DNA from: Micromonospora sp. HM5-17
Lineage (GTDB): Bacteria > Actinomycetota > Actinomycetes > Mycobacteriales > Micromonosporaceae
Length of the DNA: 64,000 nt
Direction: 5' to 3'
Assembly: GCF_003762835.1 (NCBI RefSeq)
Contig: NZ_RJWA01000001.1
Span: forward strand, 372,001 to 436,000
How positions within the stretch are numbered: position 1 is the first letter of the stretch; every line of letters begins with the position of its first letter. This document shows, piece by piece, positions 1 through 15,442 of this stretch. Below the pieces are notes generated by a model, which saw nothing but the letters and a program-made list of their open reading frames with translations, did no database searches and had not been told where the DNA came from. Made by a program: the position numbers and the translations under genes.

Positions 1-307
1 CGTCGATCATCACGGACGTGAAGCCGATGCGGATCGCGGTCAGGATCTGCTCGTAGGTGGCGCCGTGGTCCCAGTGGATCGCGATGGGGACGCTGGAGCG
101 GTTGGCCCGCTGGATCACCGCCGCGATCATGTCGGCGCCCACGTGCCGTACCTCGTCGGGGTGGATACCGAGAATCAGTGGCGCGTTCTTCTCCTCGCTG
201 ATCTCCACGATTCCGTTGAACATGGCCCAGTCGCTGATGTTGAACGCGGGCACGGCGAAGTTGTGCTCGTTCGCGACGTCGAGAATCGCCTTGCCGGTCG
301 TCAGCAT
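1..307 (-). CDS. class II (zinc) fructose/tagatose-bisphosphate-type aldolase, partial
   Basis: The first 102 codons are present and the 3' end lies outside the window. The N-terminus is LTTGKAILDVANEHNFAVPA, and residues about 81-86 read HWDHGA, matching the HxDHG motif of class II ketose-bisphosphate aldolases that carries the catalytic Asp and a zinc-binding His. Family members cleave fructose-, tagatose- or related sugar bisphosphates to dihydroxyacetone phosphate and an aldehyde in the cytoplasm. The ATG follows GGAGACCACC. The gene sits 28 nt behind the second sugar permease and is probably the last known member of that operon, which suggests it processes the imported sugar or polyol. 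The exact substrate cannot be read from this part. Confidence 0.85.
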   Translation of the reverse strand, partial: MLTTGKAILDVANEHNFAVPAFNISDWAMFNGIVEISEEKNAPLILGIHPDEVRHVGADMIAAVIQRANRSSVPIAIHWDHGATYEQILTAIRIGFTSVMID

Positions 308-335
308 GTTGGTGGTCTCCTTTTGGGATGGGATG

Positions 336-1184
336 TCAGGCCTTGACGGCGCCGGAGGCGAGGCCGCCGACGAACCGTCGTTGGAAGAGGAGGAAGAGGA
401 GGAGCACGGGAATCGACCCGAGGATGCTCATCGCCATCATCTGGTTCCATTCGTACGAGTGTTGGCCCATGAGCAGTTGAATGCCGATGGGGACCGTGCG
501 CATGTTGTCGGTACGGGTGAGGGTGAGCGCGAACAGGTACTCGTTCCACGAGATCATGAAGGTGTAGACCCCGACCGCGACCAGCCCGGGGACCGAGACG
601 GGTACGAGGACGCGCCAGAGCGCGGTCCAGCCGTTGCCGCCGTCGACCTTGACGGACTCGTCCAGTTCGCGCGGCAGCGTGTTGAAGTACGCCGTGATCA
701 TGATGATCGCGTACGGCAGGGTGAACACCATGTGGGTGAGGATCAGCCCCGGATAGGTGTTGTAGAGGCCGAGCGCGACGACGAGCCCGAAGTACGGAAT
801 GACGAGCGTGATCGGCGGCACCGCCTGGACGCTGACGATCACGGCGTTGATGAGTCGCTGGAGTGGGAAGCGGAATCGGCTGAACGCGTACCCGGCCAGG
901 GTCGCCACCACGAGCGTCAGAATGGTCACCGCGAGGGCGACGACGTAGCTGTTGACGAAGAACCGCAGTTGCGCGGTGTTGCCGAGGATTTCGCGGTAGG
1001 CGTCGAACGAGAAGTTCTCGGTGATCAGCTTCGGCGGTGTCGCGAAGACCTCGCCGTTGCTCTTGAACGAGGTGGAGAGCATCCACAGGACGGGGAGCCC
1101 GGCGAATGCCGCGCCGAGAACCAGTCCGGTGAGAACGCCGACCTTGGCGGCGGTCCGCCGTGCCCTGGAGGTGCGTCCGCGCAT
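336..1184 (-). CDS. carbohydrate ABC transporter permease, MalG-type
   Basis: This 282-residue integral membrane protein has about six predicted transmembrane segments, beginning with KVGVLTGLVLGAAFAGLPVLW. The cytoplasmic EAA loop, where the ATPase docks, reads ELDESVKVDGGNGWTALWRVLVPV, and a conserved NEYLFALTLT stretch follows. These mark the CUT1 family of sugar importers. The ATG lies one base after the TGA of the upstream permease, with GGAGCGG as ribosome site, so the two permeases are translated together. No ATPase gene is in the window. Actinobacterial CUT1 systems often share one MsiK-type ATPase encoded elsewhere, which would explain this. Confidence 0.92.
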   Translation of the reverse strand: MRGRTSRARRTAAKVGVLTGLVLGAAFAGLPVLWMLSTSFKSNGEVFATPPKLITENFSFDAYREILGNTAQLRFFVNSYVVALAVTILTLVVATLAGYAFSRFRFPLQRLINAVIVSVQAVPPITLVIPYFGLVVALGLYNTYPGLILTHMVFTLPYAIIMITAYFNTLPRELDESVKVDGGNGWTALWRVLVPVSVPGLVAVGVYTFMISWNEYLFALTLTRTDNMRTVPIGIQLLMGQHSYEWNQMMAMSILGSIPVLLLFLLFQRRFVGGLASGAVKA

Positions 1185-1185
1185 C

Positions 1186-2148
1186 TCACCGCTCCCTCTG
1201 CTGGCGGACGTAGAAGAAGGCCAGAATCATCGTGAGCAGGAGGACGATCACCGCGCTGGCGGAGGCGGTGGCGAACTCGTACTCGCTGAATGCCTGCTTG
1301 TAGGTGTAGGTGCTGAGCATTTCGGTGGCGTTCAGTGGCCCGCCGCCGGTCGTCATCCAGATCAGCGCGAACTGCTGCGAGGTCCAGATCAGGTCGAGCA
1401 CCGCCATGCTGACGATGACCGGACGCAACTGCGGGAGCGTCACGCTGAGGAACCGCTGGACCGGGTTCGCTCCGTCCACCGCGGCGGCCTCGTAGAGGTC
1501 GGCGGGGATGCCCTGGAGCGCGGCGAGCAGGCTGATCATGAAGAACGGGTAGCCGGACCAGATGTTGACGAACGTCAGGACCCAGAGCGCCTTGCCCGGG
1601 TCACCGAACCAGTTCACCCCGTCGTGGATGAGGCCCAGCGTGCCCAGCACGTAGTTCACCACGCCGGCCGGGTCGAGCAGGAGGCGCCAGATGACGGCGA
1701 TCACCGCGATCGTGAACAGCCAGGGCAGGATGTAGACGATCCGGAAGATGGCCTTGGTGACCCCGCTGAGCAGCGGCGTGTTGAGCATCATCGCGAAGGC
1801 CAGGCCGAGAACCAGGTGGGCGACCGTGCTGACCGTGATGAAGACGAACGTGTTCTTCAGCGCGGTCAGGAACTCCGGATCGGTCAGGACCCTGGTGTAG
1901 TTGGCGAACCCGACGAAGACCGGGTTCTCCTGCACGATCACGTTGTCCCGGAACGAGTAGCTGATCACCATGACGATGGGGACCACCATCAGGACCGCGA
2001 TCAGCAGCGCCGTGGGGGACAGGTAGGCGTACGGCACCAGGCGCCGGGCAACGGCGGCGGGCCGGGCGCGGCGGGGGGTGACCGGTTGGAGGGCCGGCGG
2101 GGCGGCCTCCGGCGCGAGCATGGGGTGGTCGACGTGCGCGGATGTCAT
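1186..2148 (-). CDS. carbohydrate ABC transporter permease, MalF-type
   Basis: This 320-residue membrane protein has a proline-rich cytoplasmic head of about 35 residues. Transmembrane segments follow, starting at PYAYLSPTALLIAVLMVVPI. The EAA motif DLYEAAAVDGANPVQRFLSVTLPQLRP identifies it as the MalF-like half of a CUT1 importer. It precedes the MalG partner with a single-base gap and follows the binding-protein gene by about 60 nt. The gene order, binding protein-permease-permease-aldolase, is typical of a dedicated sugar uptake and catabolic operon. Confidence 0.92.
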   Translation of the reverse strand: MTSAHVDHPMLAPEAAPPALQPVTPRRARPAAVARRLVPYAYLSPTALLIAVLMVVPIVMVISYSFRDNVIVQENPVFVGFANYTRVLTDPEFLTALKNTFVFITVSTVAHLVLGLAFAMMLNTPLLSGVTKAIFRIVYILPWLFTIAVIAVIWRLLLDPAGVVNYVLGTLGLIHDGVNWFGDPGKALWVLTFVNIWSGYPFFMISLLAALQGIPADLYEAAAVDGANPVQRFLSVTLPQLRPVIVSMAVLDLIWTSQQFALIWMTTGGGPLNATEMLSTYTYKQAFSEYEFATASASAVIVLLLTMILAFFYVRQQRER

Positions 2149-2209
2149 CGCTGTCTCCTTGGTCGGGTGCCGCGCCGGTCCACCGGCGCGGCACCCGGGC
2201 CGACGGTCC

Positions 2210-3496
2210 TCACATCTGCGAGGACCAGGCCTCCTGCGACCTGGCGAGGGCGTCGTCGACGCTCTGCTTGCCGGTCAGCACGAGCTGGAGCTGTTCGGCG
2301 AAGCTGCGCATCAGGTCCTCGGACTTTGGCAGGCCCACGAACTCGTTGGCCGGGTAGCCCTGGGAGTAGATGTCGAAGGCGGTCTTGAACAGCGGGTCGC
2401 TCTGGCTGAAGTCCGGTACGGCGGTCTTGTTGCCGGGGAACCCGTTCGCCAGCGTGCTCAACTGGGCGTTGGTCTGCTGGCTGAGCAGGAACTGGACGAG
2501 CTTGAACGCCTCGGCCTTGTGCTTCGAGGAGTTGGCGATCCCGATCCCCCACGACGCGTACGGCATGCCGCGCTGACCGGTGTAGCCGTCCTCGGCCGGC
2601 AGGGCCGCCACCGTGAACTTCAGGTCCGGGTTGTTCTTCTTGATCAGGTTGATGTGCGCGAGCGAGTCGATCACCATGCCGACCTGGCCGGTGGTGAACT
2701 TCTCGACCTTGTCCTGTTCCTTCATCGTGAGCGAGCCGGGCACGATGACCCCGGCGTCGTTCAGGCTCTTGATGAACTCGATCGTGCTCTTGACCGGCGC
2801 GCTGGTCAGGTTGGGCTTGCCGTCGGCGAGCATGCTGCCGCCGGAGGCCCACAGCCAGGACATCACGTCGTTCTGGACACCGTTCGGGACGGCCGTGTCG
2901 AGCGGCAGGGCCCAGCCCTTGACGTTGCCGCCGGTGGCGCTGATCTTCTTGGCCGCGTCCAGGAACTCGGAGCGGGTGCTGGGCACCGCCGAGACCCCCG
3001 CCTTGGAGAGCAGGTCCTGGTTGACGAAGAGCGGGTAGACGAAGTTGACCACCGGGATCATGTACGTCTTCCCGTTGACCTGCACCTGGCTGGCGAGCTG
3101 GCTGGCGTCGTAGTTCGCCTCCCTCATCAGCGGGGTCAGGTCGGCGATCGCGCCCTGCTTGGCGAAGTCGTTGACCCAGGCGCCGTCCAGGCCGACCACG
3201 TCGGGCAGGGTTCTCGACGCCGCCCCGGTCACCAGTTGCTGCTTGGTGGAGGCGTAGGGCGCGCTCAACAGCTTGACCTTGATGTTGGGGTTCTGCGCCG
3301 TGAAGTCGGCGATGAGCTTGTCGAAGGAACCCTCCGGCAGCTCAGGGGCCCACCACTGCGCGAACTCCAGCGTCACCGTCCCGTCCGAGCTCGCGTCGCC
3401 CGAGTCGCCGGAGCCGCAGGCTCCCGCCGCCAACGCGACCGCCACGGCCGCCGTCACTGCTCCCAGTCGCTTCAGCCGGGCTGCGCGTACCGCCAT
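2210..3496 (-). CDS. sugar ABC transporter substrate-binding lipoprotein
   Basis: A bacterial extracellular solute-binding protein (family 1) that captures the substrate for the two permeases downstream. I start it at the ATG at 3496 because GGAAGGAG lies seven bases upstream. This gives a lipoprotein signal: basic head, hydrophobic VTAAVAVALAAGA core and lipobox AAGAC with Cys27, so the protein should be lipid-anchored outside the membrane. The body has features typical of the family, including EFAQWWAPE near the N-terminus and repeated INLIKKNNPDL and AFKLVQFLLS stretches. The 428-residue length is normal. A longer frame reaching 3571 adds a non-signal-like Arg-rich head and is not favoured. 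Confidence 0.92.
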   Translation of the reverse strand: MAVRAARLKRLGAVTAAVAVALAAGACGSGDSGDASSDGTVTLEFAQWWAPELPEGSFDKLIADFTAQNPNIKVKLLSAPYASTKQQLVTGAASRTLPDVVGLDGAWVNDFAKQGAIADLTPLMREANYDASQLASQVQVNGKTYMIPVVNFVYPLFVNQDLLSKAGVSAVPSTRSEFLDAAKKISATGGNVKGWALPLDTAVPNGVQNDVMSWLWASGGSMLADGKPNLTSAPVKSTIEFIKSLNDAGVIVPGSLTMKEQDKVEKFTTGQVGMVIDSLAHINLIKKNNPDLKFTVAALPAEDGYTGQRGMPYASWGIGIANSSKHKAEAFKLVQFLLSQQTNAQLSTLANGFPGNKTAVPDFSQSDPLFKTAFDIYSQGYPANEFVGLPKSEDLMRSFAEQLQLVLTGKQSVDDALARSQEAWSSQM

Positions 3497-3512
3497 GGCG
3501 AACTCCTTCCAT

Positions 3513-3560
3513 GGAGATCTTCTTGCTCTATGCCGGGGAGATCTTTCTGTTCTCTGCCGG
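3513..3560. repeat. two adjacent 24-bp direct repeats in the binding-protein leader
   Basis: Two head-to-tail copies (3513-3536 and 3537-3560) of GGAGATCTTNNTGNTCTNTGCCGG differ at four positions. They lie immediately upstream of the ribosome site of the binding-protein gene, between it and the divergent DeoR gene. A small hairpin, CACGCT...AGCGTG (3569-3583), follows. Spacing of about two helical turns would suit paired repressor binding, but no binding data are implied. Confidence 0.6.
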
Positions 3561-3816
3561 GTTGTCGCCACGCTAGCAGCGTGTTAGAGCTGGGGACAAG
3601 AGCAAGAACGGCAAGACTCGGCTAAGTACTGCATACTCTTGCGAGATGCGGCAGAGCGGGGGCGTCAACGGTAGCGCGTTGACCTGAGGAACGGGCAGGT
3701 AGAGATGAGATGGCTACGGGTGGTGCGCGAGTGTGCCGCACTTCGCCGCTCTGTGCGGCGGTTCGGCTCGCCGGCGCCCGGTTGTGGCATACTGCCGCAC
3801 TAGCGAGGGGGAACAC

Positions 3817-4656
3817 GTGAGCCCTGAGAAGGACGACCGACAGCGCCGCCTGCCCGCGGGACGCAAGGCCCAACTGGCCGCGTACGTCGCCGAGGCCGGG
3901 CAGGTGACCGTGGCTGCGCTGGCCGAACGCTTCGGCGTCTCCATCGACACCGTCCGGCGCGATCTTGATCAGCTCAGCGCCGACGGGGTGCTGGTGCGGA
4001 CGTACGGCGGCGCCGTGAGCCTGGCGACGGCCTTCCGCACCGACCGCACCGTCGACCAGCGGCTCACCATCCAGGAGCGGGAGAAGGAGAAGATCGCGGC
4101 GTTGGCCGCGACGCTGGTCCAGGACGGTTCCACCATCATGATCAACGGTGGGACGACAACCCTGGCGCTCGCCCGTAACCTGCGCCAGCACCGCGACCTC
4201 ACCGTGGCGACGAACAACCTGCTGGTGCCGGCGGCGCTGCCGCCCTCGGCGATCCGGGACATCTACGTCTTCGGCGGGGCGGTCCGCTCGCTCACCCTGG
4301 CCACGATCGGCCCGGTCAGCTTCCGTACCTCCGGCGGCGACGAGCTGGACATCCGCTGCGACCTGGCGCTGATCGGCGTCGGGGCGGTCTCCGCGGACGC
4401 CGGCTACACGACGAGCAATCTCGCCGAGGCGGCGATGATGCGGGACATGATCTCGCGGGCGGCGCGGGTGGCGATCCTCGCCGACTCCTCGAAGTTCGGC
4501 CGTCGGCTCTTCGCGCAGGTGTCAGAGCTGGCCAGTGCCGACTACCTTGTCACTGACTCGATGCCGCCGCCCGATCTGCGGGATGCGCTCGCCGCGAACG
4601 GCGTGGAGCTGCTGACTCCGGCGGCGTCCCCGAGGCCACGACACGCTCCCGCCTGA
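3817..4656 (+). CDS. DeoR-family transcriptional regulator of the sugar operon
   Basis: The 279-residue product has an N-terminal DeoR helix-turn-helix (AGQVTVAALAERFGVSIDTVRRDLDQLSADG, about residues 29-58). A C-terminal sugar-phosphate-binding domain follows, with INGGTTTLALARNL and a TSNLAEAAMMRDMISRA stretch typical of DeoRC. The GTG at 3817 is preferred because GAGGGGG precedes it and the frame upstream is not family-like. It is transcribed away from the importer/aldolase operon across a 320-bp gap. DeoR proteins usually repress such operons until a phosphorylated intermediate binds, so the importer operon is the likely target. Confidence 0.9.
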   Translation: MSPEKDDRQRRLPAGRKAQLAAYVAEAGQVTVAALAERFGVSIDTVRRDLDQLSADGVLVRTYGGAVSLATAFRTDRTVDQRLTIQEREKEKIAALAATLVQDGSTIMINGGTTTLALARNLRQHRDLTVATNNLLVPAALPPSAIRDIYVFGGAVRSLTLATIGPVSFRTSGGDELDIRCDLALIGVGAVSADAGYTTSNLAEAAMMRDMISRAARVAILADSSKFGRRLFAQVSELASADYLVTDSMPPPDLRDALAANGVELLTPAASPRPRHAPA

Positions 4657-4878
4657 GCGACGGCTGCCCGAGCGACGGCTGCTCGCCGCCGTCGGACCGG
4701 CCGCGACGGGCGCGGCCGGTGGCCGGCGCTGCGGTAGCGGGCGGTTCTGCCTGCCCCGGCGGTGCCGCCCAGGGTCGAGGCCACCGCCGTCTTACCCACG
4801 TCCTGCCCCAGCGGACTGGCCCCGATCATCAGAACGATGCGTCCCGTGCCAGCATCCGGGGCCGCGCCCGAGACACCC
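4657..4878. other. intergenic, no gene recognised
   Basis: About 220 bp separate the DeoR gene from the small ribbon-helix-helix gene and mark the left edge of the accessory island. An open frame on the minus strand contains LGQDVGKTAVAST, faintly like a nucleotide-binding loop, but it is short and lacks the rest of an ATPase. It may be debris of a lost gene. Confidence 0.4.
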
Positions 4879-5043
4879 ATGACGCTGGTCAACACCCAAC
4901 TGCCGGTGCCGCTCGTCGGACGCCTCGACCAGCTCGCCGAGCAGGCCACAGCCCGCCGACCCGGCATCATCCGTGAGGCCCTGACCGCGTACGTCAATGA
5001 CCGTACGGCGCCTGTCAGCCGGGACGAGGCCGAACACGATTGA
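4879..5043 (+). CDS. small ribbon-helix-helix (CopG/Arc-like) protein
   Basis: The 54-residue product starts TLVNTQLPVPLVGRLDQLAE, a beta strand followed by a helix, and continues RPGIIREALTAYVNDR, the second helix. This is the usual pattern of RHH DNA-binding proteins and antitoxins. The frame stays open upstream to 4762, but those residues are not family-like, so I start at the ATG at 4879. No obvious toxin partner follows; the next gene is the restriction nuclease about 100 bp downstream. It could be a local regulator of the restriction genes, an orphan antitoxin or a relic. Confidence 0.5.
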   Translation: MTLVNTQLPVPLVGRLDQLAEQATARRPGIIREALTAYVNDRTAPVSRDEAEHD

Positions 5044-5141
5044 GGGACCGCAAGCTCTAAAGGCGAGGTCCGGGGGCATTGGCATCGACAGTGGAGGTCT
5101 CCCCGTGGCTAGGTGCCGTGCTTGCCAGTACGCTCCCTCAC

Positions 5142-6044
5142 GTGTCAAACACGAACCATCACGCTGAGTTTAAGCTGTCGATCACCAAGGCGCTGGCTGA
5201 CCAGCTTTCAGCCGCTTTGAAGAAGCTGACCCCGGCTCCCTTGACCGCCGAGGTGATTGACGTGCTTCCCAAGGGTCCTGGCGTCTACCAGCTATACCTC
5301 GACGGTCAGCCCGTGTACGTCGGCAAGGCGAGCAAGTCGTTGCCCACAAGGCTCCGCAAGCACTATCGAAAGCTGTCGGGTCGCCCTATCACCGGAGAGG
5401 TTTCCTTTGTCTGCCTCTATCTTGAGGAAGATCTAGAGGCGTCAGCGCCAGAGAAGATGCTACTCGGCAAGTACGAGGGCAAGTACGAGCGCGCTGACGG
5501 TGAGCCAGCGCAGAAGCTGCCCTGGAACAACAACGGGTTCGGGAACAACGACCCGGGACGGAGGCGCGATACCAGCGAAGTCGCGGCCAACCATTTCGAC
5601 GCTCTGTATCCGGTCAACCTCGATCTGACGATCGATTGGCTTACCGCAGGCGTGAGGCCGGTCGGCAAGGTGCTGACCGAGCTAAAGGATAACCTGCCGT
5701 ACAATCTTCGCTTCGAGCAGCCCAAGAACAGTACCCGGGCACGTCACGACTACAAGCTTAATGTAGAAGTCCCGTCCCACCCCATGACCGTGCGGGCGGC
5801 GCTCCAGCTGGTCGTGGGCGCACTTCCCGAGGGATGGCAGGGTACTGCTCTTCCTGGCTATCTAATCCTTTACTACGAGAACACCAGCTACAACAGTGCT
5901 CAGTGCTGGTGGAGGCGTTCCGGCTCGGAAGTTATCGAGACCCCAGGACCTGCCTTATTCGCTCCGGCTACGGACATCGTTGAGGAGCCGGATGAGGACG
6001 ACGAAGGCTCTCGTGACAACGGGAACGAAGAGATTGAAACATAG
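5142..6044 (+). CDS. Eco29kI-type GIY-YIG restriction endonuclease
   Basis: The first 160 or so residues match the Eco29kI restriction enzyme family, GIY-YIG nucleases that cut CCGCGG. The signature strands are GVYQLYLDG (47-55) and VYVGKA (58-63). The Arg/His pair is in TRLRKHYRK (69-77), the metal-binding Glu is about 104 (APEKMLL) and the Asn-rich PWNNNGFGNNDPGRR is at 128-141. These correspond to Eco29kI catalytic residues Tyr49, Tyr76, Arg104, His108, Glu142 and Asn154. Eco29kI is about 214 residues, so this 300-residue protein has an extra C-terminal region of roughly 110 residues and an acidic tail. Codon use is much less GC-rich than in flanking genes, a sign of transfer. The GTG at 5142 is my preferred start; in-frame TTG 5079 and GTG 5091 are alternatives. 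Confidence 0.85.
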   Translation: MSNTNHHAEFKLSITKALADQLSAALKKLTPAPLTAEVIDVLPKGPGVYQLYLDGQPVYVGKASKSLPTRLRKHYRKLSGRPITGEVSFVCLYLEEDLEASAPEKMLLGKYEGKYERADGEPAQKLPWNNNGFGNNDPGRRRDTSEVAANHFDALYPVNLDLTIDWLTAGVRPVGKVLTELKDNLPYNLRFEQPKNSTRARHDYKLNVEVPSHPMTVRAALQLVVGALPEGWQGTALPGYLILYYENTSYNSAQCWWRRSGSEVIETPGPALFAPATDIVEEPDEDDEGSRDNGNEEIET

Positions 6045-6121
6045 CTTAGCTTTTTGGTCCCTCTCGTGCGGATGGACCATCCGGCCCGCCGGGCGTAAAG
6101 TGCCGAAGGGTCTGTGTGTCG

Positions 6122-6580
6122 CTAGAGATTATCGTGGGTTGGAGTCGGGACGACTTCGGTTTCCGATTCGATTGGAGCGAGCCCCGCTCGTAGCCGTTCT
6201 ACGACGCTGACGGCTTCTTCCTCCTCAATGTGTCCGACCCATTGCTGGCGCCATGCTGACCCTTCGGCTAGCACCGCGTCGAGCGCTCGTCCGGCCAGGT
6301 CCAAAAGCGACGGGCTAACCGGGATGTCGCGAGGGCCAAGGAAACGCGGTGCGTAGGCCGAGTCCGACGGGGGCGTGCCGGTAAGCGCCTGCGATACCGT
6401 CGCCGCTGCCGCGATCGCACGGGCCGCGTCCTCCGTGCCGAGCGCGGGACCGGCTTGGGCGGCGCGCTCAAGGGTTCGGCGAACCAGGCTGAGGCGCTCG
6501 GGGGTATTCGTCCCTTTCAGGGTTCCGCACCAGTCAACCGCGTCGTCGTTGTCAAATGGTCCGAGCTGCCATGTGGCCAT
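6122..6580 (-). CDS. DUF4259-like protein between restriction and modification genes
   Basis: The 152-residue product begins ATWQLGPFDNDDAVDWCGTL, the characteristic start of DUF4259 proteins (typically WGxGPFDNDDAxDW), and has a helical remainder. The ATG at 6580 is preceded by GAGGAGG. An upstream extension of the frame is Arg/Pro-rich noise. Function is unknown for the family. Here it lies on the opposite strand between the nuclease (convergent) and the methyltransferase (divergent), inside the restriction-modification locus. That position makes a link to control or tolerance of the system possible but unproven. Confidence 0.75.
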   Translation of the reverse strand: MATWQLGPFDNDDAVDWCGTLKGTNTPERLSLVRRTLERAAQAGPALGTEDAARAIAAAATVSQALTGTPPSDSAYAPRFLGPRDIPVSPSLLDLAGRALDAVLAEGSAWRQQWVGHIEEEEAVSVVERLRAGLAPIESETEVVPTPTHDNL

Positions 6581-6732
6581 GGATCCTCCTCGTGTCCAAG
6601 TAGGTCGGTGGGCGTATGGATGGAGGTGGGCGCTGGCGTGGCTTCGGGTCCGATCGGGCCGGGACGACTCGCCGCGCCCGGGCTCGCACGGGCGGCTCAC
6701 GGCGAGAGTGAGCATCGCACACCGCGTGTGGG

Positions 6733-6768
6733 TTTCCAAGATCGGAAACTCCGCGGTATGATTTCGCA
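6733..6768 (+). promoter_or_regulatory. likely leaderless promoter of the methyltransferase with abutting CCGCGG site
   Basis: TATGAT at 6757-6762 ends six bases before the ATG at 6769, the geometry of a leaderless actinobacterial mRNA. A weak -35 (TTCCAA, 6734-6739) lies 17 bp upstream of it. CCGCGG at 6751-6756, the Eco29kI recognition sequence, directly abuts the -10 box. A small dyad TTTCC/GGAAA (6733-6737 and 6744-6748) overlaps the -35. No ribosome site precedes the ATG. Methylation or cognate-protein binding at CCGCGG could tune transcription. Confidence 0.55.
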
Positions 6769-8073
6769 ATGCCTGAGCCGCAGCTGGAGCCAACCCGGGA
6801 TCGCACGTCGGTGGAGTTGTTCGCTGGCGGGGGTGGGCTGGCGATGGCGGTCCATAGGGCTGGCTTTCGTCCTCTCTTGGTCAACGAGATCGTCAAGTAC
6901 GCGTGCGAGACACTTAAGATCAACGCTGCCGAGCCGCGAGGTGAGCGGGAGCGAGTCCCTGGGCCTGGCGAGCGCTGGCCGTTGATCGAGGGCGACGTAC
7001 GCGACGTCAGGTTTGAGTATCTGTGGGGTCAGGTCGATCTGCTGGCGGGAGGCCCCCCTTGTCAGCCTTTTAGCCTCGGGGGTGTCGCTAGGGGCGATGA
7101 GGATAAGCGCAACATGTTTCCGGAGATGATTCGGGCCGTTCGGGAGATTCAACCAAAGGCGGTCATCTGCGAGAACGTCCAGGGCTTGTTGCGCCCATCG
7201 TTTAGGCCCTACTTTGAATACATTGAACGAGCGATGAGCTTGCCGTTTGATGAGCGCGGCGAGGATATCACCTGGCGCGAGCATGATGAAGTATTGCGCA
7301 GCGAGCTATCGAAAGATCCTACTGACCCGAAGCGACGCTATGTCGTGCTTACGACAAGAGTGAACGCTGCTGATTACGGGGTTCCGCAAATCCGAAACAG
7401 GATTATTCTCGTAGCGTTCCGCGCTGACCTCGAAGTCGACATCCAGCGATTTGAGCGCGAAGTGCAGCCAAGTCACTCGGAGGCAGCGCTTATTCGTTCA
7501 ATGCTGGACGGATCCTATTGGGATCGGCACCCCAATGTTCCTGGCCATGTGCGCAAACGGGTTATGTCCCGGATATCGAATACCTTGCCCTTGGATGATG
7601 GAAAGTTGCCATGGCGAACGTTGCGAGACGCCCTCCACGGCACTGATAGTCAGCCCGCGCTTCCGCCGGTGCCATGGGAATGGCTCGATCGACAGGAGCA
7701 TCACCTCGGCGGCTTTACAGACCACATTGGCTGGCCCGGCGCCCGAATCTATCCGGGTCATACGCCTAACGAACTTGACCGCCCCGCGAAGACAGTGAAG
7801 GCGGGAGTGCACGGGGTACCTGGCGGAGAGTCTGTTTTGTTGACTGACGAACTCTGGCCAGAACAGCCGCAGGATTCGCCTTACCCATACCGGCATCGGT
7901 ACATGACCGTACGTGAAACAGCGCGCGTTATGACTTTTCCGGATGATTGGAAGCTTGCTGGTCCACGTGGTGAGCAGATGCGGCAACTGGGCAATGCGGT
8001 TCCCGTGGCCCTTGGTGAGTTCTTCGCTAGGAAGATTTACGCCGCACTGGACGAGGCTGAGAGTCGACGGTGA
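6769..8073 (+). CDS. DNA (cytosine-5-)-methyltransferase
   Basis: This 434-residue C5 methyltransferase transfers a methyl group from S-adenosylmethionine to cytosine. Motif I is SVELFAGGGGLAMAVHRAGF (14-33), and motif IV is GGPPCQPFS with catalytic Cys at about 98. Motif VI is ENVQGLL (about 135-141), motif VIII is QIRNRIILVAFR (about 207-218), and motif X is QLGNAVPVALGEFFA near the C-terminus. The variable target-recognition region lies between VIII and IX. Its neighbour is an Eco29kI-type nuclease, and M.Eco29kI is also a C5 enzyme, so CCGCGG is the probable target; this is inference. Base composition is lower in GC than the chromosome around it. It overlaps the downstream repair gene by GTGA. 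Confidence 0.93.
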   Translation: MPEPQLEPTRDRTSVELFAGGGGLAMAVHRAGFRPLLVNEIVKYACETLKINAAEPRGERERVPGPGERWPLIEGDVRDVRFEYLWGQVDLLAGGPPCQPFSLGGVARGDEDKRNMFPEMIRAVREIQPKAVICENVQGLLRPSFRPYFEYIERAMSLPFDERGEDITWREHDEVLRSELSKDPTDPKRRYVVLTTRVNAADYGVPQIRNRIILVAFRADLEVDIQRFEREVQPSHSEAALIRSMLDGSYWDRHPNVPGHVRKRVMSRISNTLPLDDGKLPWRTLRDALHGTDSQPALPPVPWEWLDRQEHHLGGFTDHIGWPGARIYPGHTPNELDRPAKTVKAGVHGVPGGESVLLTDELWPEQPQDSPYPYRHRYMTVRETARVMTFPDDWKLAGPRGEQMRQLGNAVPVALGEFFARKIYAALDEAESRR

Positions 8074-8879
8074 CTACCCCAACGGCGGAGCCCGATCATC
8101 GGTGGGCTGAGAAGTCCCCGGACCCGAAGGCGTGGAAAGGGCGGAAAGGCCGCAGTCGACGAGCGGCTGCGGCTGAACAGGACGCCGCTGCCGGCGGGGC
8201 CGACCGACGGTGGGTTGACCTGGGGGATGGCCGCCGAGCACGAGCGTCCGTTGACCTCAAACTACTGCCACGAACACGCCGGATCCGCGCCTACCTGCGC
8301 TGGTCGGATAAGGGGCACTCACCGACTCGCTATCTCGGAGAGGTGCATCACGCCACCCGCGCGGAGAATCTTGCCGAGGGTTGGCGCCTGGCCTTCGCCC
8401 AAGGTCTCGTCGTTCCGCCCGAGACGGTGCGGACGTCGTGGGCGAAGAGCCCGGCAGTCAGAGCGGTGATGCGTGCCAACAAGGCACGGGACACTGGTCC
8501 TGAACGGAGACTACGGTCATTACTACACAAGGCTGGCCTGCGTTACAGAGTTAACGCGAAACCACTGCCGACTCTACGCCGCACCGCCGATGTGGTCTTC
8601 TCCGCCGTTCGCGTTGCGGTCTTCGTTGACGGATGCTATTGGCATGGCTGCCCGGAGCACTATCGTCCCGCTCGAGTGAACAACGAATTCTGGCGGAACA
8701 AGATTGAAGGTAATCGTGCTCGTGACCGTGAAACTGATCAGCTGCTTACCGACGCTGGGTGGACTGTGATTCGGATCTGGGAACATGAGGATCCAGCGAC
8801 GGCTGCACGATTGGTCCAACGCGTCGTTAGAGAAGCGGCCAAAACGCCGCAACCCCCTAGATGCGTCGGACCGTGCTGA
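8070..8879 (+). CDS. vsr: Vsr-type mismatch endonuclease with extra N-terminal domain
   Basis: Residues about 127-265 form a Vsr domain that nicks T:G mismatches arising from deaminated 5-methylcytosine. Visible motifs are MRANKARDTGPERRLRSLLH, ADVVF (the metal-binding Asp at about 174), FVDGCYWHGCPEH, NEFWRNKIEGNRARD and IRIWEHE. E. coli Vsr has about 156 residues. This protein has 269, because some 120 residues precede the nuclease, including a compact segment (about 48-115, RRWVDLGDGRRARASVDL...RYLGEV) that I do not recognise. The GTG start overlaps the methyltransferase TGA, giving strict coupling to its partner, as in other methyltransferase-Vsr pairs. Composition again suggests acquisition from outside. 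Confidence 0.88.
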   Translation: MTTPTAEPDHRWAEKSPDPKAWKGRKGRSRRAAAAEQDAAAGGADRRWVDLGDGRRARASVDLKLLPRTRRIRAYLRWSDKGHSPTRYLGEVHHATRAENLAEGWRLAFAQGLVVPPETVRTSWAKSPAVRAVMRANKARDTGPERRLRSLLHKAGLRYRVNAKPLPTLRRTADVVFSAVRVAVFVDGCYWHGCPEHYRPARVNNEFWRNKIEGNRARDRETDQLLTDAGWTVIRIWEHEDPATAARLVQRVVREAAKTPQPPRCVGPC

Positions 8880-9003
8880 ATTAGCGTACCGGTCGTGAAG
8901 ATTCCTTGAGCCGTGTGCTCGGCGAGCCTCGTTGGCGCTGAAGTCGCTGTCCCTTCAACTCGTTAGGCATTGAAACGCATGACATCATGGTGTGCGGTGC
9001 GAG

Positions 9004-9435
9004 CTACCCCTGCGACGATGCGATCGACGCTGCTTCGTTGAGAAGGTTGGCGAGGTCGTCGTCGGAAATGGGCCTGTCGTTAAGGGCCTTGTGTAGCGCG
9101 TGAGTTTGAATTTTGCCCATCATGCCCGGCTCAATATTCAAGGGAGTGTCAGGGTCGAAGACGCTCGTGATCAGCGCTTCAGCGGCGGTAGGGTCTATGG
9201 AGCTACCGCCGACATCAAGTTGCGATCTCATCCCGGCGACGAACTGGATGATGGCGGCGTCGTCACGCCGTCCGTCGAAGTACCGATCGACCGCTAGGAA
9301 GAAGGCTGCGTTAAGGAGCAGGGCATAGTTGCCCCAACCTTCCTCGTCCAACTCCTTTTCCAGGCGATCGTTCGCGTCTGCCTCATCGCGTACGAACGTG
9401 CGTAGGAACTCAATCAGCTTCGGATTCGTCGTCAC
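9004..9435 (-). CDS. protein of unknown function, third gene behind the GntR-type regulator
   Basis: I do not recognise this 143-residue protein. It is acidic and mostly helical, with GNYALLLNAAFFLAVDRYFDG as a hydrophobic helix near residues 32-52. It has no signal peptide and no catalytic motif I can name. The GTG at 9435 has GAGGAG eight bases upstream. The gene overlaps the end of the upstream 221-residue gene by 26 bp, so it belongs to the same transcript as the two helical proteins and probably the GntR gene. GC content is intermediate between the restriction genes and the chromosome. Confidence 0.65.
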   Translation of the reverse strand: MTTNPKLIEFLRTFVRDEADANDRLEKELDEEGWGNYALLLNAAFFLAVDRYFDGRRDDAAIIQFVAGMRSQLDVGGSSIDPTAAEALITSVFDPDTPLNIEPGMMGKIQTHALHKALNDRPISDDDLANLLNEAASIASSQG

Positions 9436-10075
9436 GTTGCCGTCTCCTCTTGCGAATTTCCCTAACTTTTTCGATGCCAGCTCTCACCGCCAGCGTCAAA
9501 CTTGCGGCTGCAAGCAAAATGTCCGTAGCTGGAGGTTGACTGTTGCTGGCCATCGGCTGAGCTGGAGGTGGCTGGCTGGGCGTCCCTACCGACGCCTGCC
9601 CGTCACCCGGACGAAGTCTGTCCCGGAACGCGGCTACCGATTCGCGCGAGAGCTGTTCGACATTCTTGATGTCGCCCTCTCGGTCGGCGAGGAATTGAAC
9701 CGTTCTCCGATGAAACCTCGCCAGCCTAGCCTCTCGGTCGGCCGCCTCGCTCACCAAGCGCTCGCCGTCGGGCATGACATCAGAGGCGGCGTCTCTACTG
9801 GGAGTAGCGCCCGGCGCGATGATGTTGATGTAAGCGGAGAAGTGGCCTGCCGCCTCACTGAGCAGACGCGCGACCTTGCCCGCCTTCTCACTGGCCGTTC
9901 GGCTCTCCGTGATGGCGGCTCGCATTCTCGGATCGGCAGTTCCTCGCCCGGCCTCCACAAAGGATTTATGTGACAGCTCGGACTCGTTCCTGGCTCCATC
10001 GGCGTTGATAGCGGACCGGTCGATGGCCTCTACAGCTTGCAGGAGGCGCGCTACCACCTCGCCGATGCTGGTCAT
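9410..10075 (-). CDS. helical protein with C-terminal hydrophobic helix, unknown function
   Basis: Starting at the ATG at 10075, which overlaps the previous gene's stop as ATGA, the product has 221 residues. The first 170 are mostly amphipathic helix with many Ala, Arg and Glu (ESRTASEKAGKVARLLSEAAGHFSAYINIIAPG). A Pro/Gln-rich linker follows (TPSQPPPAQPM). Near the C-terminus a hydrophobic helix, DILLAAASLTLAVRAGIEKV, precedes a basic tail REIRKRRRQR, which could be a single membrane anchor. It resembles the helical DUF6244-like proteins of Micromonosporaceae only in general style. No function can be assigned. Confidence 0.65.
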   Translation of the reverse strand: MTSIGEVVARLLQAVEAIDRSAINADGARNESELSHKSFVEAGRGTADPRMRAAITESRTASEKAGKVARLLSEAAGHFSAYINIIAPGATPSRDAASDVMPDGERLVSEAADREARLARFHRRTVQFLADREGDIKNVEQLSRESVAAFRDRLRPGDGQASVGTPSQPPPAQPMASNSQPPATDILLAAASLTLAVRAGIEKVREIRKRRRQRDDESEAD

Positions 10076-10332
10076 CCGAGCGCCGACAGGTAGGAGGTCG
10101 CGGCGTCGACAGTCGCCTTCAGGCGGCGTGCTGTCAACTCCAGCTCGTGCTCGGCAGCTTTCAGGCACGCGAGACCCTGTTTGACCTCCTCATGCCTGCT
10201 GTCGTGCAGGGTTTGGGCAGCGAGAGCCCTTGCCTCGGCAGCCTCCCTCATGACTGCCTGGATCGCCCTTCGGCTGTGCTCGGCTGACTGTAGGCCCCGT
10301 TTGATGGTGGCCTTCGCCTCACCGACACTCAT
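10072..10332 (-). CDS. small all-helical protein, first of a coupled trio
   Basis: The 86-residue product looks like one long coiled-coil or helical hairpin (SVGEAKATIKRGLQSAEHSRRAIQAVMREAAEARALAAQTL...) with no Cys, no signal peptide and no membrane segment. Its stop overlaps the next start (ATGA), implying equal expression with the 221-residue protein, and the two may form a complex. It lies 105 bp behind the GntR-type gene on the same strand. It is similar in size and helix content to WXG-like proteins but lacks the WXG motif. Function unknown. Confidence 0.6.
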   Translation of the reverse strand: MSVGEAKATIKRGLQSAEHSRRAIQAVMREAAEARALAAQTLHDSRHEEVKQGLACLKAAEHELELTARRLKATVDAATSYLSALG

Positions 10333-10437
10333 CGCGCCTCGATCATGGTCGACTCACCCTCGCTGCCTCGGTAGGTCCACCTGCGACAAACACTATCGGG
10401 TGACCTCAATGCGGGGTACCGCCTGACTCTCGGCTCG

Positions 10438-10665
10438 CTAACTCTCTGGCGTCTCGGCGACGAAGACACCACGGCCGGGTCGGCCGACCAAGATCCCGCG
10501 CTGCCGAAGCTTCGCGACGGCGCGAGAGACGGTTGACATGGAGACGTCGTAGTAGTCGGACAACTCCTTGGTCGAGGGGATCTTGGTGCCAGGCGGGTAG
10601 ATGCCTTCGTCGATGCGCCTGACAAGATCCTCGATCAACTCATCCATCGTCGGCGGGATAGGCAT
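10438..10665 (-). CDS. GntR-type winged-helix protein without effector domain
   Basis: The 75-residue product is a bare GntR DNA-binding domain: IDEGIYPPGTKIPSTKELSDYYDVSMSTVSRAVAKLRQRGILVGRPGRGVFVAE, with the helix-turn-helix at about residues 30-50 and the wing at the end. Normal GntR regulators carry a further 150 or more residues for ligand binding. Effector-less forms like this are common in actinobacterial integrative elements and beside small gene clusters. The ATG follows AAGGGG. It heads the same-strand cluster of three unknown genes and is its most plausible regulator. Confidence 0.8.
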   Translation of the reverse strand: MPIPPTMDELIEDLVRRIDEGIYPPGTKIPSTKELSDYYDVSMSTVSRAVAKLRQRGILVGRPGRGVFVAETPES

Positions 10666-10954
10666 GGCTCGCCCCTTGCGGTCGGTTGGCCTCTCCAGTA
10701 TTGATCACCGTTCTCGACGTAGGCAACGCAGCTACCAGCGAAGACATAGCTTGTGCGTCTTCCTTACTTGACGTAGGTGAAAGAGGTTGGCTAGCGTCAT
10801 CGATGGCGGTTGTCGGGCGGGTGCGGTCGGTTGGCACCTTTCGCGCAGGTCAGGGCACCCGCCGGAAATCACCTGGGTCGGAGTGCTGGTGGGCGCCCCT
10901 CCGTTCATCAGTTCTGCCCGGGGCCAGGTGCGAACCGAAAGAGGAGCGACCCCG

Positions 10955-11050
10955 GTGCCGTACTGCCAACGGAGGCTGCGGTGGCGGGGTGGGGTGGTCC
11001 GGGCCGGACCCGGGCGGTCCGGACCACCCCGTCCATTCCCGACGGTGTGA
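10955..11050 (+). CDS. possible 31-codon leader peptide upstream of the DivIVA-domain gene
   Basis: A GTG at 10955 is preceded by GAGGAG (10941-10946) at eight bases and opens a 31-codon frame beginning VPYCQRRLRWRGG and ending PFPTV. It stops 14 bp before the DivIVA-domain start. The frame runs through a 12-bp-arm hairpin (10991-11030), so translating it would disturb that hairpin. It may be a leader peptide or chance; low confidence. Confidence 0.25.
   Translation: MPYCQRRLRWRGGVVRAGPGRSGPPRPFPTV
10991..11030 (+). promoter_or_regulatory. perfect 12-bp stem-loop before the DivIVA-domain operon
   Basis: GGGGTGGTCCGG (10991-11002) pairs perfectly with 11019-11030 around a 16-nt loop. It has no T-run after it and lies 34 bp before the DivIVA-domain start. 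It could be a terminator for leftward or rightward read-through out of the island, or an attenuator in the operon leader. Confidence 0.5.
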
Positions 11051-11064
11051 AAGGAGCCCTTGAC

Positions 11065-11379
11065 GTGCGCAGATTCCTCCGCTGGCTACGGCCGGCCCGG
11101 CGCGGGCCGCAGCCGCGCCTGGTGACGACTGGCGCGTACCGCACGGCGACGTACGCCCCGTTGCGGCCCTGGCAGGTGCGGGGCCGGCACTTCACGATCA
11201 CCCGGCGCGGGCTGGACCCCGCCGAGGTCGCCGCCTTCCTCGACCGGGTGGCGCACGACCTCGACAGCCTCTACGCCCGGCTGGCCGTCAGCGACGACGA
11301 GAACCGGCGGATCAAGGACGCGCTGCGCCGCTGGCAGTCCAGTCAGGCGCCGAGCATGCGGGACCTGGCTCGGCGATGA
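11065..11379 (+). CDS. DivIVA-domain protein
   Basis: The 104-residue product contains the DivIVA-like signature FTITRRGLDPAEVAAFLDRVAHDLDSLYARLAVSDDENRRIKDALR (about residues 47-92), a short N-terminal motif followed by coiled coil. DivIVA proteins recognise curved membrane at poles and septa and recruit partners. This one is far shorter than Wag31 and has only one coil, so it is an accessory homologue. The GTG at 11065 has AAAGGAG at eight bases. Its stop overlaps the next start (ATGA), beginning a three-gene coupled operon whose role is unknown. Confidence 0.8.
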   Translation: MRRFLRWLRPARRGPQPRLVTTGAYRTATYAPLRPWQVRGRHFTITRRGLDPAEVAAFLDRVAHDLDSLYARLAVSDDENRRIKDALRRWQSSQAPSMRDLARR

Positions 11380-11633
11380 GCGAGGACGTGAACCGGTACG
11401 TCATCCACGTGCCGGTCGTCGCCACCGACCTGCGCCATGCTCGCATCCTGGCCCGGACCGCCGCCCGGGCGCTGTCGTTCCTCGCCGTCGACGCCCGGGA
11501 GACGACCGTCTCCGAGGAGGACAACCAGGGTGTCCACCACCGGGTCTTCTGCGATCGGCTGCTGGCGGACGGCCGGCGCTGCGCGCTCCGGGCCGAACAC
11601 CAGTCCGAGTGTGCCCCGCAGGTGCCCCGGTGA
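11376..11633 (+). CDS. small protein of unknown function, middle of the coupled operon
   Basis: The 85-residue product (SEDVNRYVIHVPVVATDLRHARILARTAARALSFLAVDARETTVSEEDN...) has no signal or membrane segment and no motif I can name. Two cysteines in its C-terminal third (VFCDRLLADGRRCALR) plus one in SECAPQ may bind a metal. It is locked between its neighbours by ATGA at its start and GTGA at its end, so it is made with the DivIVA-domain protein and the large zinc-ribbon protein. The repeated HARILARTAARAL style suggests a small alpha/beta fold. Confidence 0.7.
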   Translation: MSEDVNRYVIHVPVVATDLRHARILARTAARALSFLAVDARETTVSEEDNQGVHHRVFCDRLLADGRRCALRAEHQSECAPQVPR

Positions 11634-13750
11634 CCGTCCCACCCGTCGTCACCTGTTCCGCCTGCGCGGGACTGACCTTCACCCTCGACCCCTGTCGCTG
11701 CACCTGGCACGGCGACCGGTTCCTGGTCGACGACGAACTGCCGCCGGTCCGGAGCGGCGAGGCGTACCAGGACTGCCAGCTCTGCCAGGGCACCGGCACG
11801 GTCGCCAGCGGCTGCCACCGGTGCGGCCAGCGGGGCCGGCGGCGCGCCCAACTCGTCCTCACCGTGGTCAACGCCGACACCGGGGCCGTCGCGTCGGCCA
11901 GCGTCACCCCGGGCGCCGTCGAACCCCGACCCCGGGACGGCCGTTGGGTGCTCGCCCTCACCCCGCTGATCCTCGAGCTGGCCGCCGCCGTGTCGGCCAC
12001 CGCGCTGGTCGAGCTGACCGGCGGCGGCCAGCCGCTCGGCGACGAGGAGCTGATCCTGCCCGCCGAATGGCGCCCCGACCTTCCCACCGACCAGCGGGAC
12101 GCCCTGGTCGCGACGGTCCTCGCCGACCATGCCCACAACCCGTGGCGGGTCTACCAGGGGCGAGCCGTCGCACCGCCACCCCTCGACCCGGGCACCCGGC
12201 TCACCCAGCTCTGCCGGCTCGCCGACCAGCTCCACCTCGACCTGGTGGTCGAGGTACGGCACCCGGAGTGGGGCGGGTCGGCCTGGGACGTCCGCTACGA
12301 GCTGCCAGGCGGCAGCGTGCCGACCCGACCCCGCGTACAGGGCGACGACCTGCCGGCCGCCGTCGCCGCCACCACGATCGTCGACGCCTTCGACGGGTTC
12401 GAGCCCCGCAACCTCGACGCCCCGGCGTACTTCCTCCGGCCCGGTGCCGGCCCGCCCGACCGGCCCGAGCCGATCGACCTCGACCAGGTCGAGCGGCGGG
12501 TGCTCCGGGACGCCGAGGACCGGCCCGGCGCCCAGGCGATCTGGCGGAACGGCCGGTGGTGGCACACCTCGCTCCGGGTCGGCCGGACCGTCGAGACGCT
12601 CCACGAGGAACCGACCGGACAGGTGACGCGCCGGGTCACCACCATCCTGACCCGGAGGTGGGAGCCGCCCGCTCCCGACTGGTGGGGTGCCCCGATCCCG
12701 TACGACGACTGCCCCGACTGCGACCCCCACAGCCGGCTCCGGGCCTGCTGGTGTCGGCTCGGCGGCCGTCCGACCGACCCCGGTTGTGCCGCCTGCGGCG
12801 GGACCGGCGTCCACGTCGAGCACCTGCCCTGCCACACCTGCGGCGACAGTCGGCGCGTCTACCGGGGCGCCGTCATCAGCGTCACCGACCTCGCCGGTCG
12901 GGTCGTCCACGAGAACTGGCCGATGGCGCCGGTGACCGCGCCGCTGGTCGCCACCCAGCCCGGCGGGAAGCCCGTGGTCCACCTGCCCGAACGGTACCGG
13001 CTTGCCCGGCTGGCCACCCGGCTCGACCAGGCACCGACCGACCTCACCGAACTCGACCTCGGGCACACGGTCTGCCAGGACCTGCGGGACGGGGTCGTGA
13101 CGCTGGACCACCCGGACACCCACCCGCTCGCCGCGCAGCTCGCCCGCGCCACCCGGGGCCGACCCGGCGGCCGGCTGCTGCTGGCGGCCCGCCCACCGGA
13201 GGCGCCGCCGCTGATCGAGCTGATCCGGATCGCCCTCGGCCTGCACCTCGCGATCGCGATCACCGTGCAGGACCACCGGCCCAACGCCGACGACCCGCGG
13301 CGGATCCACGGCGAACGCTGGGCGGTGGAGGTGCTACCCGCCGACCCGGCCGCCCCGTTCACCGACCTGCCGACCCAGCCGAGCCTCGCCGCGGCGGTGT
13401 CGAACTGCGTGACGTACCTGGAGGTGGCGCTGGCGGCGACGGCCCCCGCCGAGCCGGACCGGCCGATCCCGGTGCCGCAGACCCCGGTGCCGCCGCCGAC
13501 ACCGGCACCCGTCGCCAACCCGGCCGCGCCGGCCGCCGACCCGGGCCGGCTCGTCGCGCGGCTCGGCCGACATTACGCCGGCACCCCGGTCACGGTACGT
13601 CTCGACCGGGCCGGCTGCACCGTCCACCTGCACGAGTACGGCGTACCCCGCCGGCTGGCCACGGCACCGACCCTCGCCGCCGCGCTCACCGCCCTCGGCG
13701 TACCCGCCGACGACGGGTGCCCCGAGCGGCGGGCCGACGGGGCGTCCTGA
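11630..13750 (+). CDS. large protein with DnaJ-like CxxC zinc-ribbon clusters, unknown function
   Basis: This 706-residue protein starts at GTG 11630, overlapping the previous stop. It has two clusters of CxxC pairs: CSACAG...CQLCQGTGTVASGCHRCG in the first 70 residues, and CPDCDPHSRLRACWC...CAACGGTGVHVEHLPCHTCGDSRRV near 355-415. CxxCxGxG resembles the DnaJ zinc-binding repeat, but no J domain is present. Regions between and after the clusters are Pro/Ala-rich, with a segment (VNADTGAVASASVTPGAVEPRPRDG) that may be a beta domain. No enzymatic motif is visible. It may scaffold protein-protein contacts with the DivIVA-domain partner; that is inference from the operon alone. Confidence 0.75.
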   Translation: MTVPPVVTCSACAGLTFTLDPCRCTWHGDRFLVDDELPPVRSGEAYQDCQLCQGTGTVASGCHRCGQRGRRRAQLVLTVVNADTGAVASASVTPGAVEPRPRDGRWVLALTPLILELAAAVSATALVELTGGGQPLGDEELILPAEWRPDLPTDQRDALVATVLADHAHNPWRVYQGRAVAPPPLDPGTRLTQLCRLADQLHLDLVVEVRHPEWGGSAWDVRYELPGGSVPTRPRVQGDDLPAAVAATTIVDAFDGFEPRNLDAPAYFLRPGAGPPDRPEPIDLDQVERRVLRDAEDRPGAQAIWRNGRWWHTSLRVGRTVETLHEEPTGQVTRRVTTILTRRWEPPAPDWWGAPIPYDDCPDCDPHSRLRACWCRLGGRPTDPGCAACGGTGVHVEHLPCHTCGDSRRVYRGAVISVTDLAGRVVHENWPMAPVTAPLVATQPGGKPVVHLPERYRLARLATRLDQAPTDLTELDLGHTVCQDLRDGVVTLDHPDTHPLAAQLARATRGRPGGRLLLAARPPEAPPLIELIRIALGLHLAIAITVQDHRPNADDPRRIHGERWAVEVLPADPAAPFTDLPTQPSLAAAVSNCVTYLEVALAATAPAEPDRPIPVPQTPVPPPTPAPVANPAAPAADPGRLVARLGRHYAGTPVTVRLDRAGCTVHLHEYGVPRRLATAPTLAAALTALGVPADDGCPERRADGAS

Positions 13751-13834
13751 GCACGATCGGCGTACCGGGCCACGGCGCCACCGGGGCGAACGCGCCGCCG
13801 TCCCCGCCCACGAGCGCGGCTCGGCCGGCGGCGC

Positions 13835-15163: not shown

Positions 15164-15173
15164 CTGCCCCTCC

Positions 15174-15440
15174 TCAGCCGCCCGCGAACGGCGGCAGCAC
15201 GTCGACCGTCGCCCCCGCCGGGATGGGGGCCTGACGATCATGGCAGGCGACGCCGTTCACCAGAAAACTCGCCACCCCGAGCACCCGGGCGAGCCGTTCG
15301 CCGTGTCGCCGGGCAAGGTCGTCGGCGAGCTCGTCGAGGCTGCGACCGCCGGGCACCGACTCCTCGGCGACCCCGGCGGCGGCCCGGGCCGCCGCGAAAT
15401 AGCGTACGACCAGGGTGGGTTCCGTGTGCGTGGTCTCCAC
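15174..15440 (-). CDS. moaD: MoaD-family sulfur carrier for molybdopterin synthesis
   Basis: The 88-residue product has the ubiquitin-like MoaD/ThiS fold pattern: VVRYFAAARAAAGVAEESV at the start, FLVNGVACHD in the middle, and a C-terminal LPPFAGG. The terminal Gly-Gly is the residue pair that is adenylated and thiocarboxylated. MoaD delivers sulfur within molybdopterin synthase. It follows moaA directly, the moaA TGA lying two bases before this GTG, so the two form a molybdenum-cofactor operon. A TTG at 15446 is an alternative start overlapping moaA. Confidence 0.88.
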   Translation of the reverse strand: METTHTEPTLVVRYFAAARAAAGVAEESVPGGRSLDELADDLARRHGERLARVLGVASFLVNGVACHDRQAPIPAGATVDVLPPFAGG

Positions 15441-15442
15441 TC

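Follow-up and report, generated by a model that had tools for sequence, protein, structure and literature searches.

The four genes and their products

In the genome of Micromonospora sp. HM5-17 (Actinomycetota; Micromonosporaceae), four genes, here called R, DUF4259, M and V, are present and intact at positions 5142–8879 of the window, the 64,000-nt stretch that was analysed (contig NZ_RJWA01000001.1, positions 372,001 to 436,000, forward strand). A sequence-only reading of this DNA had placed a nuclease, a DUF4259 gene, a methyltransferase and a Vsr gene together at this locus; all four were found, with DUF4259 on the minus strand. Their products resemble a type II restriction-modification (R-M) system with a mismatch-repair enzyme, and the system's specificity is probably CCGCGG, a word that also stands in the predicted promoter of M. 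The features are listed below in window coordinates.

5129–5134, plus strand: −10-like box TACGCT, 7 nt 5′ of the GTG start of R; also present in the Asanoa homologue (locus L032)
5142–6044, plus strand: R, GIY-YIG restriction endonuclease, Eco29kI-like, 300 amino acids (aa); assigned by active-site residues and a profile-profile match
6122–6580, minus strand: DUF4259 protein, 152 aa, head-to-head with M; PF14078, 75 bits; ATG start at 6580
6581–6768, no strand: intergenic region of 188 nt from the DUF4259 start to the M start, holding the putative M promoter; aligned with 14 other head-to-head regions
6751–6756, no strand: CCGCGG, predicted target of the system, in the M promoter; found at 80 of 87 actinobacterial loci
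6757–6762, plus strand: TATGAT, −10-like box of M, with the start codon 6 nt further; TANNNT follows CCGCGG in all 80 loci with the site
6769–8073, plus strand: M, C5-cytosine DNA methyltransferase, 434 aa; PF00145, TIGR00675; 38% identity to M.Eco29kI
8070–8879, plus strand: V, Vsr mismatch endonuclease, 269 aa, with a 4-nt overlap with the M stop; TIGR00632, PF03852; matches 1cw0 by sequence and fold
8157–8399, plus strand: extra N-terminal domain of V, about residues 30–110, predicted as helix, beta strands, helix; model pLDDT >90 in most of the stretch

M exceeded the curated cut-offs of PF00145 (176.9 bits, cut-off 22; E 9.1e-52) and TIGR00675 (139.6 bits, cut-off 100.65), and its identity of 38% was to the methylase of plasmid pECO29. 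V likewise exceeded those of TIGR00632 (122.6 bits, cut-off 97.85) and PF03852 (67.2 bits, cut-off 27), and its model fitted the structure of E. coli Vsr, 1cw0, with a fold E value of 1.1e-6. The N-terminal domain of V was missing from the short V of Mycobacterium celatum (L056; one of 25 aligned V sequences) and from three proteobacterial V, and a fold search of its model gave weak matches only, none of them confident. The V frames of L216–L220 were short. Locus L068, of Streptomyces achromogenes NRRL B-2120, carries an R-M-V system with R head-to-head with M. SacII, which recognises CCGCGG, is an enzyme of S. achromogenes, and the L068 system may be SacII; a literature search for SacII and its source strain returned nothing.

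The sequence-only reading had called R an Eco29kI-type GIY-YIG nuclease. Six residues (Y49, Y59, R70, H74, E104 and N129) were invariant in an alignment across 13 R homologues, and the order Y, Y, R, H, E, N corresponds by alignment to that of the Eco29kI active site (Y49, Y76, R104, H108, E142 and N154; PMC1952068). Profile-profile comparison matched R to Eco29kI-type nucleases with 98.4% probability; the 100 matched columns cover the catalytic part and the GFG motif. The single R sequence gave a weak match to UvrC-type GIY-YIG domains, and the profile of the 13 homologues reached UvrC chains at E 1.6e-6 and Eco29kI chains at E 0.0041. The window R did not pass the Pfam family RE_Eco29kI (PF09517; E 0.23, 11.7 bits, cut-off 30.8), and no match to this family at E <= 0.001 was found anywhere in the window's genome (G000). 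In a DNA search, six window-type R matches in five genomes did pass it (G079, 40.2 bits; G010, 36.4 and 35.8; G164, 32.4; G160, 31.6; G107, 31.1), and the R of G048 exceeded the cut-off only with its neighbours included in the frame. Judged by these scores, R sits at the edge of the RE_Eco29kI family. The active site follows the Eco29kI order, but the label was too strong; because the window R misses the PF09517 cut-off, it is better called Eco29kI-like. By its anatomy R would work like Eco29kI, and cleavage of CCGCGG is suggested by M, by the nucleases of sister loci and by the promoter site.

The start of R at 5142 is backed by the TACGCT box shared with the Asanoa homologue; such a box was observed in 9 of 35 R genes, and the R mRNA is probably leaderless. 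In two loci (L034, 8548–9594; L035, 11139–12011), a second, divergent GIY-YIG gene of the window type lies close to the first. These second copies share 32–37% identity with the window R and together form one clade on a very long branch.

CCGCGG in the promoter of M

Upstream regions were compared at 98 loci, window included, which remained of 106 after removal of duplicates (L045, L050, L073, L093 and L116) and of loci without the motif used (L100, L120 and L216); 87 of the 98 were actinobacterial. CCGCGG followed by TANNNT was observed upstream of M at 80 of the 98 loci, against a chance expectation of 0.07 per locus from base composition, and these represent 80 of the 87 actinobacterial loci. 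A tally by named genome, which used 78 of the 80 named loci, found the site in 64 of 67 actinobacterial genomes, across 20 genera and 12 families. All 15 regions in which DUF4259 and M stand head-to-head (147–224 nt long) carry CCGCGG directly 5′ of the −10-like box of M. From CCGCGG to the in-frame start the distance was exactly 18 nt in 67 of the 80 loci and exactly 19 nt in five, and the M mRNA is probably leaderless. The word was found upstream of R in only one of 35 cases, and none of 13 V-first loci had it within 250 nt upstream of V.

With its neighbouring bases, the site has the consensus AAGATC.ACAACTCCGCGGTATGCT. Because the neighbouring bases are also conserved, the word might be a fixed promoter element and nothing else, unlinked to specificity, and its persistence in two genomes in which neither nuclease was found (G278 and G045) would agree with this. 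However, 80 of the 87 actinobacterial loci retain the complete hexamer, whereas most flanking columns outside the −10 box are conserved at 30–93% in a consensus that was anchored on the site and so favours it. Moreover, M and the sister-locus nucleases have relatives in the Eco29kI system, whose recognition word is CCGCGG (PMC1952068). We consider the fixed-element explanation improbable. That R, M and V form a set aimed at CCGCGG, as had been proposed, is well supported by comparison: by the relationship of M to M.Eco29kI, by the Eco29kI-type nucleases of sister loci and by the site before M.

At locus L103 (Streptomyces radiopugnans), the site position reads CTGCGG, which differs from CCGCGG by T for C at the second base. 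Deamination of 5-methylcytosine at that base would produce this difference, which was seen in a single case. In the window, the site at 6751–6756 is the sole CCGCGG between 4397 and 13294, a region in which other GC palindromes are also scarce. Avoidance of CCGCGG in the system's own genes was considered as additional evidence (99 occurrences versus about 183 expected from synonymous shuffling), yet the whole window was low too, with 79 versus 137 expected from dinucleotide shuffling (control palindromes were counted without an expectation). Avoidance was therefore not used as support.

The placement of its own target word in the M promoter may allow the system to sense its own methylation. 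A related explanation is that M represses by binding CCGCGG in its own promoter, as the EcoRII methylase does at its control region, with methylation itself not being the signal. The site is the predicted binding target of M and abuts the −10 box, and an EcoRII methylase without catalytic activity is reported to retain repression under some conditions (PMC12707154); sequence alone does not separate binding of M from control by methylation. We regard binding as the sole signal as rather unlikely.

DUF4259 and the exchange of the nuclease

The DUF4259 protein exceeded the PF14078 cut-off of 22.8 bits, and its gene was found as a single copy in the window's genome. The linkage of DUF4259 to M was examined in 300 genomes of the family, with M counted at E <= 1e-60. 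M was present in 26 genomes, that of the window included. DUF4259 was at the locus in all 16 genomes whose M is at least 66% identical to that of the window, head-to-head with M in 15 of them and about 7.5 kb from it in the sixteenth (G076). Where M was at most 64% identical, DUF4259 lay within 1.5 kb in none of 10 genomes, three of which (G010, G159 and G104) carry DUF4259 elsewhere. DUF4259 itself was found in 138 of the 300 genomes, mostly apart from this M. Among 40 further DUF4259 neighbourhoods, 15 of which had been picked for a match starting at profile position 2, nine were in a locus with this M and 31 were without M or V of this kind. A profile of the linked DUF4259 subtype, searched against 396 genomes of the phylum, scored high only with the window's copy (217 bits; next, 68.6 bits).

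These data speak against a general association of DUF4259 with R-M systems of this type, as it is absent beside M in most relatives and the high-scoring linked subtype occurred only in the window among the 396 phylum genomes. A lack of co-occurrence, which the sequence-only reading had named as a refuting result, was not observed: DUF4259 accompanies close M in 16 of 16 genomes, but this linkage is limited to relatives of this M in one family. Similarly, the position of DUF4259 between nuclease and methyltransferase is true of the window, but the conserved neighbour is M, while R moves or is replaced. DUF4259 was accordingly rejected as a partner of R, because R is displaced or replaced and DUF4259 stays with M.

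The nuclease differed among the 16 DUF4259-M loci. Window-type R alone was found in five (G000, G048, G283, G079 and G160), a PF09517 nuclease of more than 100 bits alone in seven (G281, G242, G076, G093, G057, G065 and G174), both in two (G110 and G164), and neither window-type R nor a PF09517 nuclease in two (G278 and G045). An additional PF09517 nuclease is encoded on a different contig of G160, and a weak R-like gene lies far from the locus in G057. On a tree of 42 M sequences, a part of those collected, with loci carrying both nucleases labelled R, nuclease type required at least seven changes. The window R shares 80% identity with the Asanoa R and 50–53% with the R of loci whose M is 71–78% identical to the window M, whereas the Asanoa M is 66% identical to it. 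The M data rejected a clade of window and Asanoa (p 3e-21), and the R data rejected a grouping of the window R with R from the loci related to it by M (p 4e-55). DUF4259-linked M fell in two separate clades, and a single clade was rejected (p 1e-4). The groups in these tests were named after the tree had been seen, so the p values are indicative. The window R and M have different nearest relatives, and DUF4259-M-V is a constant core that outlives its nucleases while the cutter is exchanged. This is a restriction system in which the protective half is constant and the cutter is replaced.

Other cassettes were observed beside the core. An MzaB/MzaD/MzaC-like trio (HATPase, DUF4420, Z1) stands beside M-V-DUF4259 in L032, L157, L160, L162 and L163; no other nuclease-like cassette was found in the last two. 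Seven loci from across phyla (L155, L158, L161, L037, L040, L043 and L222) carry a HATPase (about 780 aa) and an Mrr-type helicase (about 556 aa) beside this M-V, often with a third small gene without a family match; the HATPase had no PADLOC match, and the pair may form a defence module of its own. Loci with R and DUF4259 (L033, L035, L037 and L038) repeatedly contain a gene for an HNH nuclease of about 325–354 aa; that of L033 matches HNH_2 and resembles the phosphorothioate-DNA restriction family.

The model of the DUF4259 protein consists of six helices (mean pLDDT 86.3). It had no PDB fold match better than E 3.4, and the best E value of a PDB sequence search was 0.059. A controller (C) protein, a small helix-turn-helix (HTH) regulator, was rejected, with no HTH family match and no fold match, although a novel DNA-binding helix bundle is conceivable. 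Phage origin was also rejected, since a search of 50,697 phage records at E 1e-5 returned no DUF4259. A literature search found no described role for DUF4259. V of Embleya hyalina (L087) is followed after about 110 nt, on the same strand, by a DUF4259 gene of the solo type (6222–6746); this single case may represent an independent second link to the system.

All 38 DUF4259 sequences compared are acidic (net charge −6 to −29), and in the window the gene occupies the slot beside M that belongs to R in most relatives. R and M are head-to-head in 52 of 76 relatives, a set of loci brought in mostly by R from which the nine loci L155–L163 and the proteobacterial loci were left out and in which four myxobacterial loci were included. 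The acidic charge and the position would both suit direct buffering of the nuclease by a protein that inhibits it or mimics DNA and so limits self-cutting. Nevertheless, DUF4259 accompanies two nuclease types and also loci where neither was found, most of the 16 M-linked copies (−6 to −15) carry less negative charge than the 22 solo copies (−7 to −29), and the phage records held no match to it, which makes direct buffering very doubtful. Alternatively, DUF4259 could be a passenger that arrived beside M a single time in the family, has travelled with it since and serves a purpose outside restriction. It is common in the family and mostly away from this M, and its linkage is confined to relatives of this M, both of which favour a passenger; its retention in all 16 loci through several nuclease exchanges, and the presence of linked M in two clades (groups chosen after a quick tree), argue against one. 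We hold this to be unlikely on balance, though far from negligible. The sequence-only reading had suggested that DUF4259 may regulate or buffer the system. Since DUF4259 remains linked to M-V whichever of the two nuclease types is present, and also in loci in which neither was found, its action can be placed, in a weak step, on the M side. We tentatively suggest that the linked DUF4259 adjusts the expression or activity of M rather than one particular nuclease.

Taken together, the most probable reading, to which we assign about 60%, is a type II R-M-repair system for CCGCGG in which M-V is under the control of the system's own site and DUF4259 is a dedicated partner of M-V in one actinobacterial family. 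R would cut unprotected CCGCGG, M would protect it by C5 methylation, and V, judging from the families, would repair T:G mismatches arising from deaminated methylated C. M-V would be transcribed from the promoter whose −10 box is observed to abut the system's own site, and transcription would fall once this site is methylated or held by M, for which CfrBI, AhdI and LlaDII offer precedents. M would then be produced at a high level on entry into an unmethylated host and at a low level later. DUF4259 occupies the slot held by R in most relatives and stays with the core through nuclease exchange.

Several observations weigh against this reading. In 8 of the 80 loci with the site, the nearest in-frame ATG or GTG is 36–47 nt away, so a leaderless M mRNA does not fit those eight. 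The site is missing at 18 loci, namely 7 of the 87 actinobacterial loci (L056, L103, L112, and L217–L220, four distant M of the same family) and the 11 proteobacterial and myxobacterial loci counted; it is likewise missing before M of a Rhodococcus plasmid (L222), before M of three proteobacterial plasmids and from pECO29. It also persists in G278 and G045, the two genomes in which neither nuclease was found. DUF4259 is dispensable for this system type, being absent beside M in most relatives, and most DUF4259 genes examined stand without this M. Finally, R is not divergent from M in the window, so the full CfrBI switch cannot apply there. In the 52 relatives in which R faces M, a CfrBI-like switch is plausible, but no candidate for a −10 box on the R side was seen in the 21 head-to-head loci listed.

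As a more speculative extension, DUF4259 could be a new, non-HTH R-M accessory for the methylase-repair half. With a methylation-sensing promoter it would set the level of M, so that quite different nucleases (window-type GIY-YIG, full Eco29kI type or MZA-like) could be gained, lost or swapped around the core without death of the host. We advance this with clear reservation. Whatever its role, DUF4259 gains a conserved functional neighbourhood, and a widespread actinobacterial family offers one short promoter on which self-sensing of methylation by R-M systems can be tested.

Surroundings of the locus and comparison with known systems

The four genes had also been described as clearly lower in GC than the surrounding chromosome. 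The GC content was 0.61 at 5142–8879, 0.718 in the whole window, 0.67 at 1–5141, 0.611 at 8880–10335 and 0.74 at 10336–16000. The right flank is clearly higher in GC and the left flank modestly so; low GC extends beyond the four genes, to about 10335. Directly after V, in the same low-GC stretch, two overlapping genes without a family match lie on the minus strand (9004–9435 and 9410–10168); a relative of the first adjoins an Eco29kI-type nuclease in L157. Further on, the minus-strand frame 13835–15241 encodes a protein with three tandem copies of GATTVAEPPA in mid-sequence.

A literature search, which was not exhaustive, found no recognised description of this gene arrangement or of a target site fixed in actinobacterial M promoters. 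Neighbourhoods of the MZA/MORC type have been described (PMC2292703). Some sister loci have MzaB/C/D-like genes, with matches below the NCBIfam equivalog cut-offs, or the HATPase and Mrr-helicase pair beside M-V; the window has neither. Closer in content are the V-M-R systems of Rhizobium, Ruegeria and Methylocaldum plasmids, which encode the same three proteins at 36–43% identity over the matched parts. They differ from the window in being one V-M-R operon, in having a V without the N-terminal domain, and in lacking DUF4259 and any CCGCGG before M or V.

Eco29kI of pECO29 is similar to the window system in its GIY-YIG nuclease, which has the same residue order, and in its C5 methylase. In pECO29, however, R and M form one operon, the record lists two genes only, with neither Vsr nor DUF4259, and the plasmid contains no CCGCGG at all, unlike the M promoter of the window. 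Control of Eco29kI has been described as antisense transcription (PMC12707154).

CfrBI, in contrast, carries its own target site in the M promoter, as the window would if its predicted specificity is correct. Methylation within the overlapping divergent promoters of CfrBI blocks M and frees R (PMC12707154). In CfrBI, R is divergent from M, whereas in the window R lies upstream on the same strand and the divergent gene is DUF4259. AhdI and LlaDII, with specificities unrelated to that of the window system, resemble the prediction made here in that the M promoter alone is affected. In these two systems an effect of promoter methylation on M only has been demonstrated (PMC12707154), and the corresponding effect in the window is predicted.

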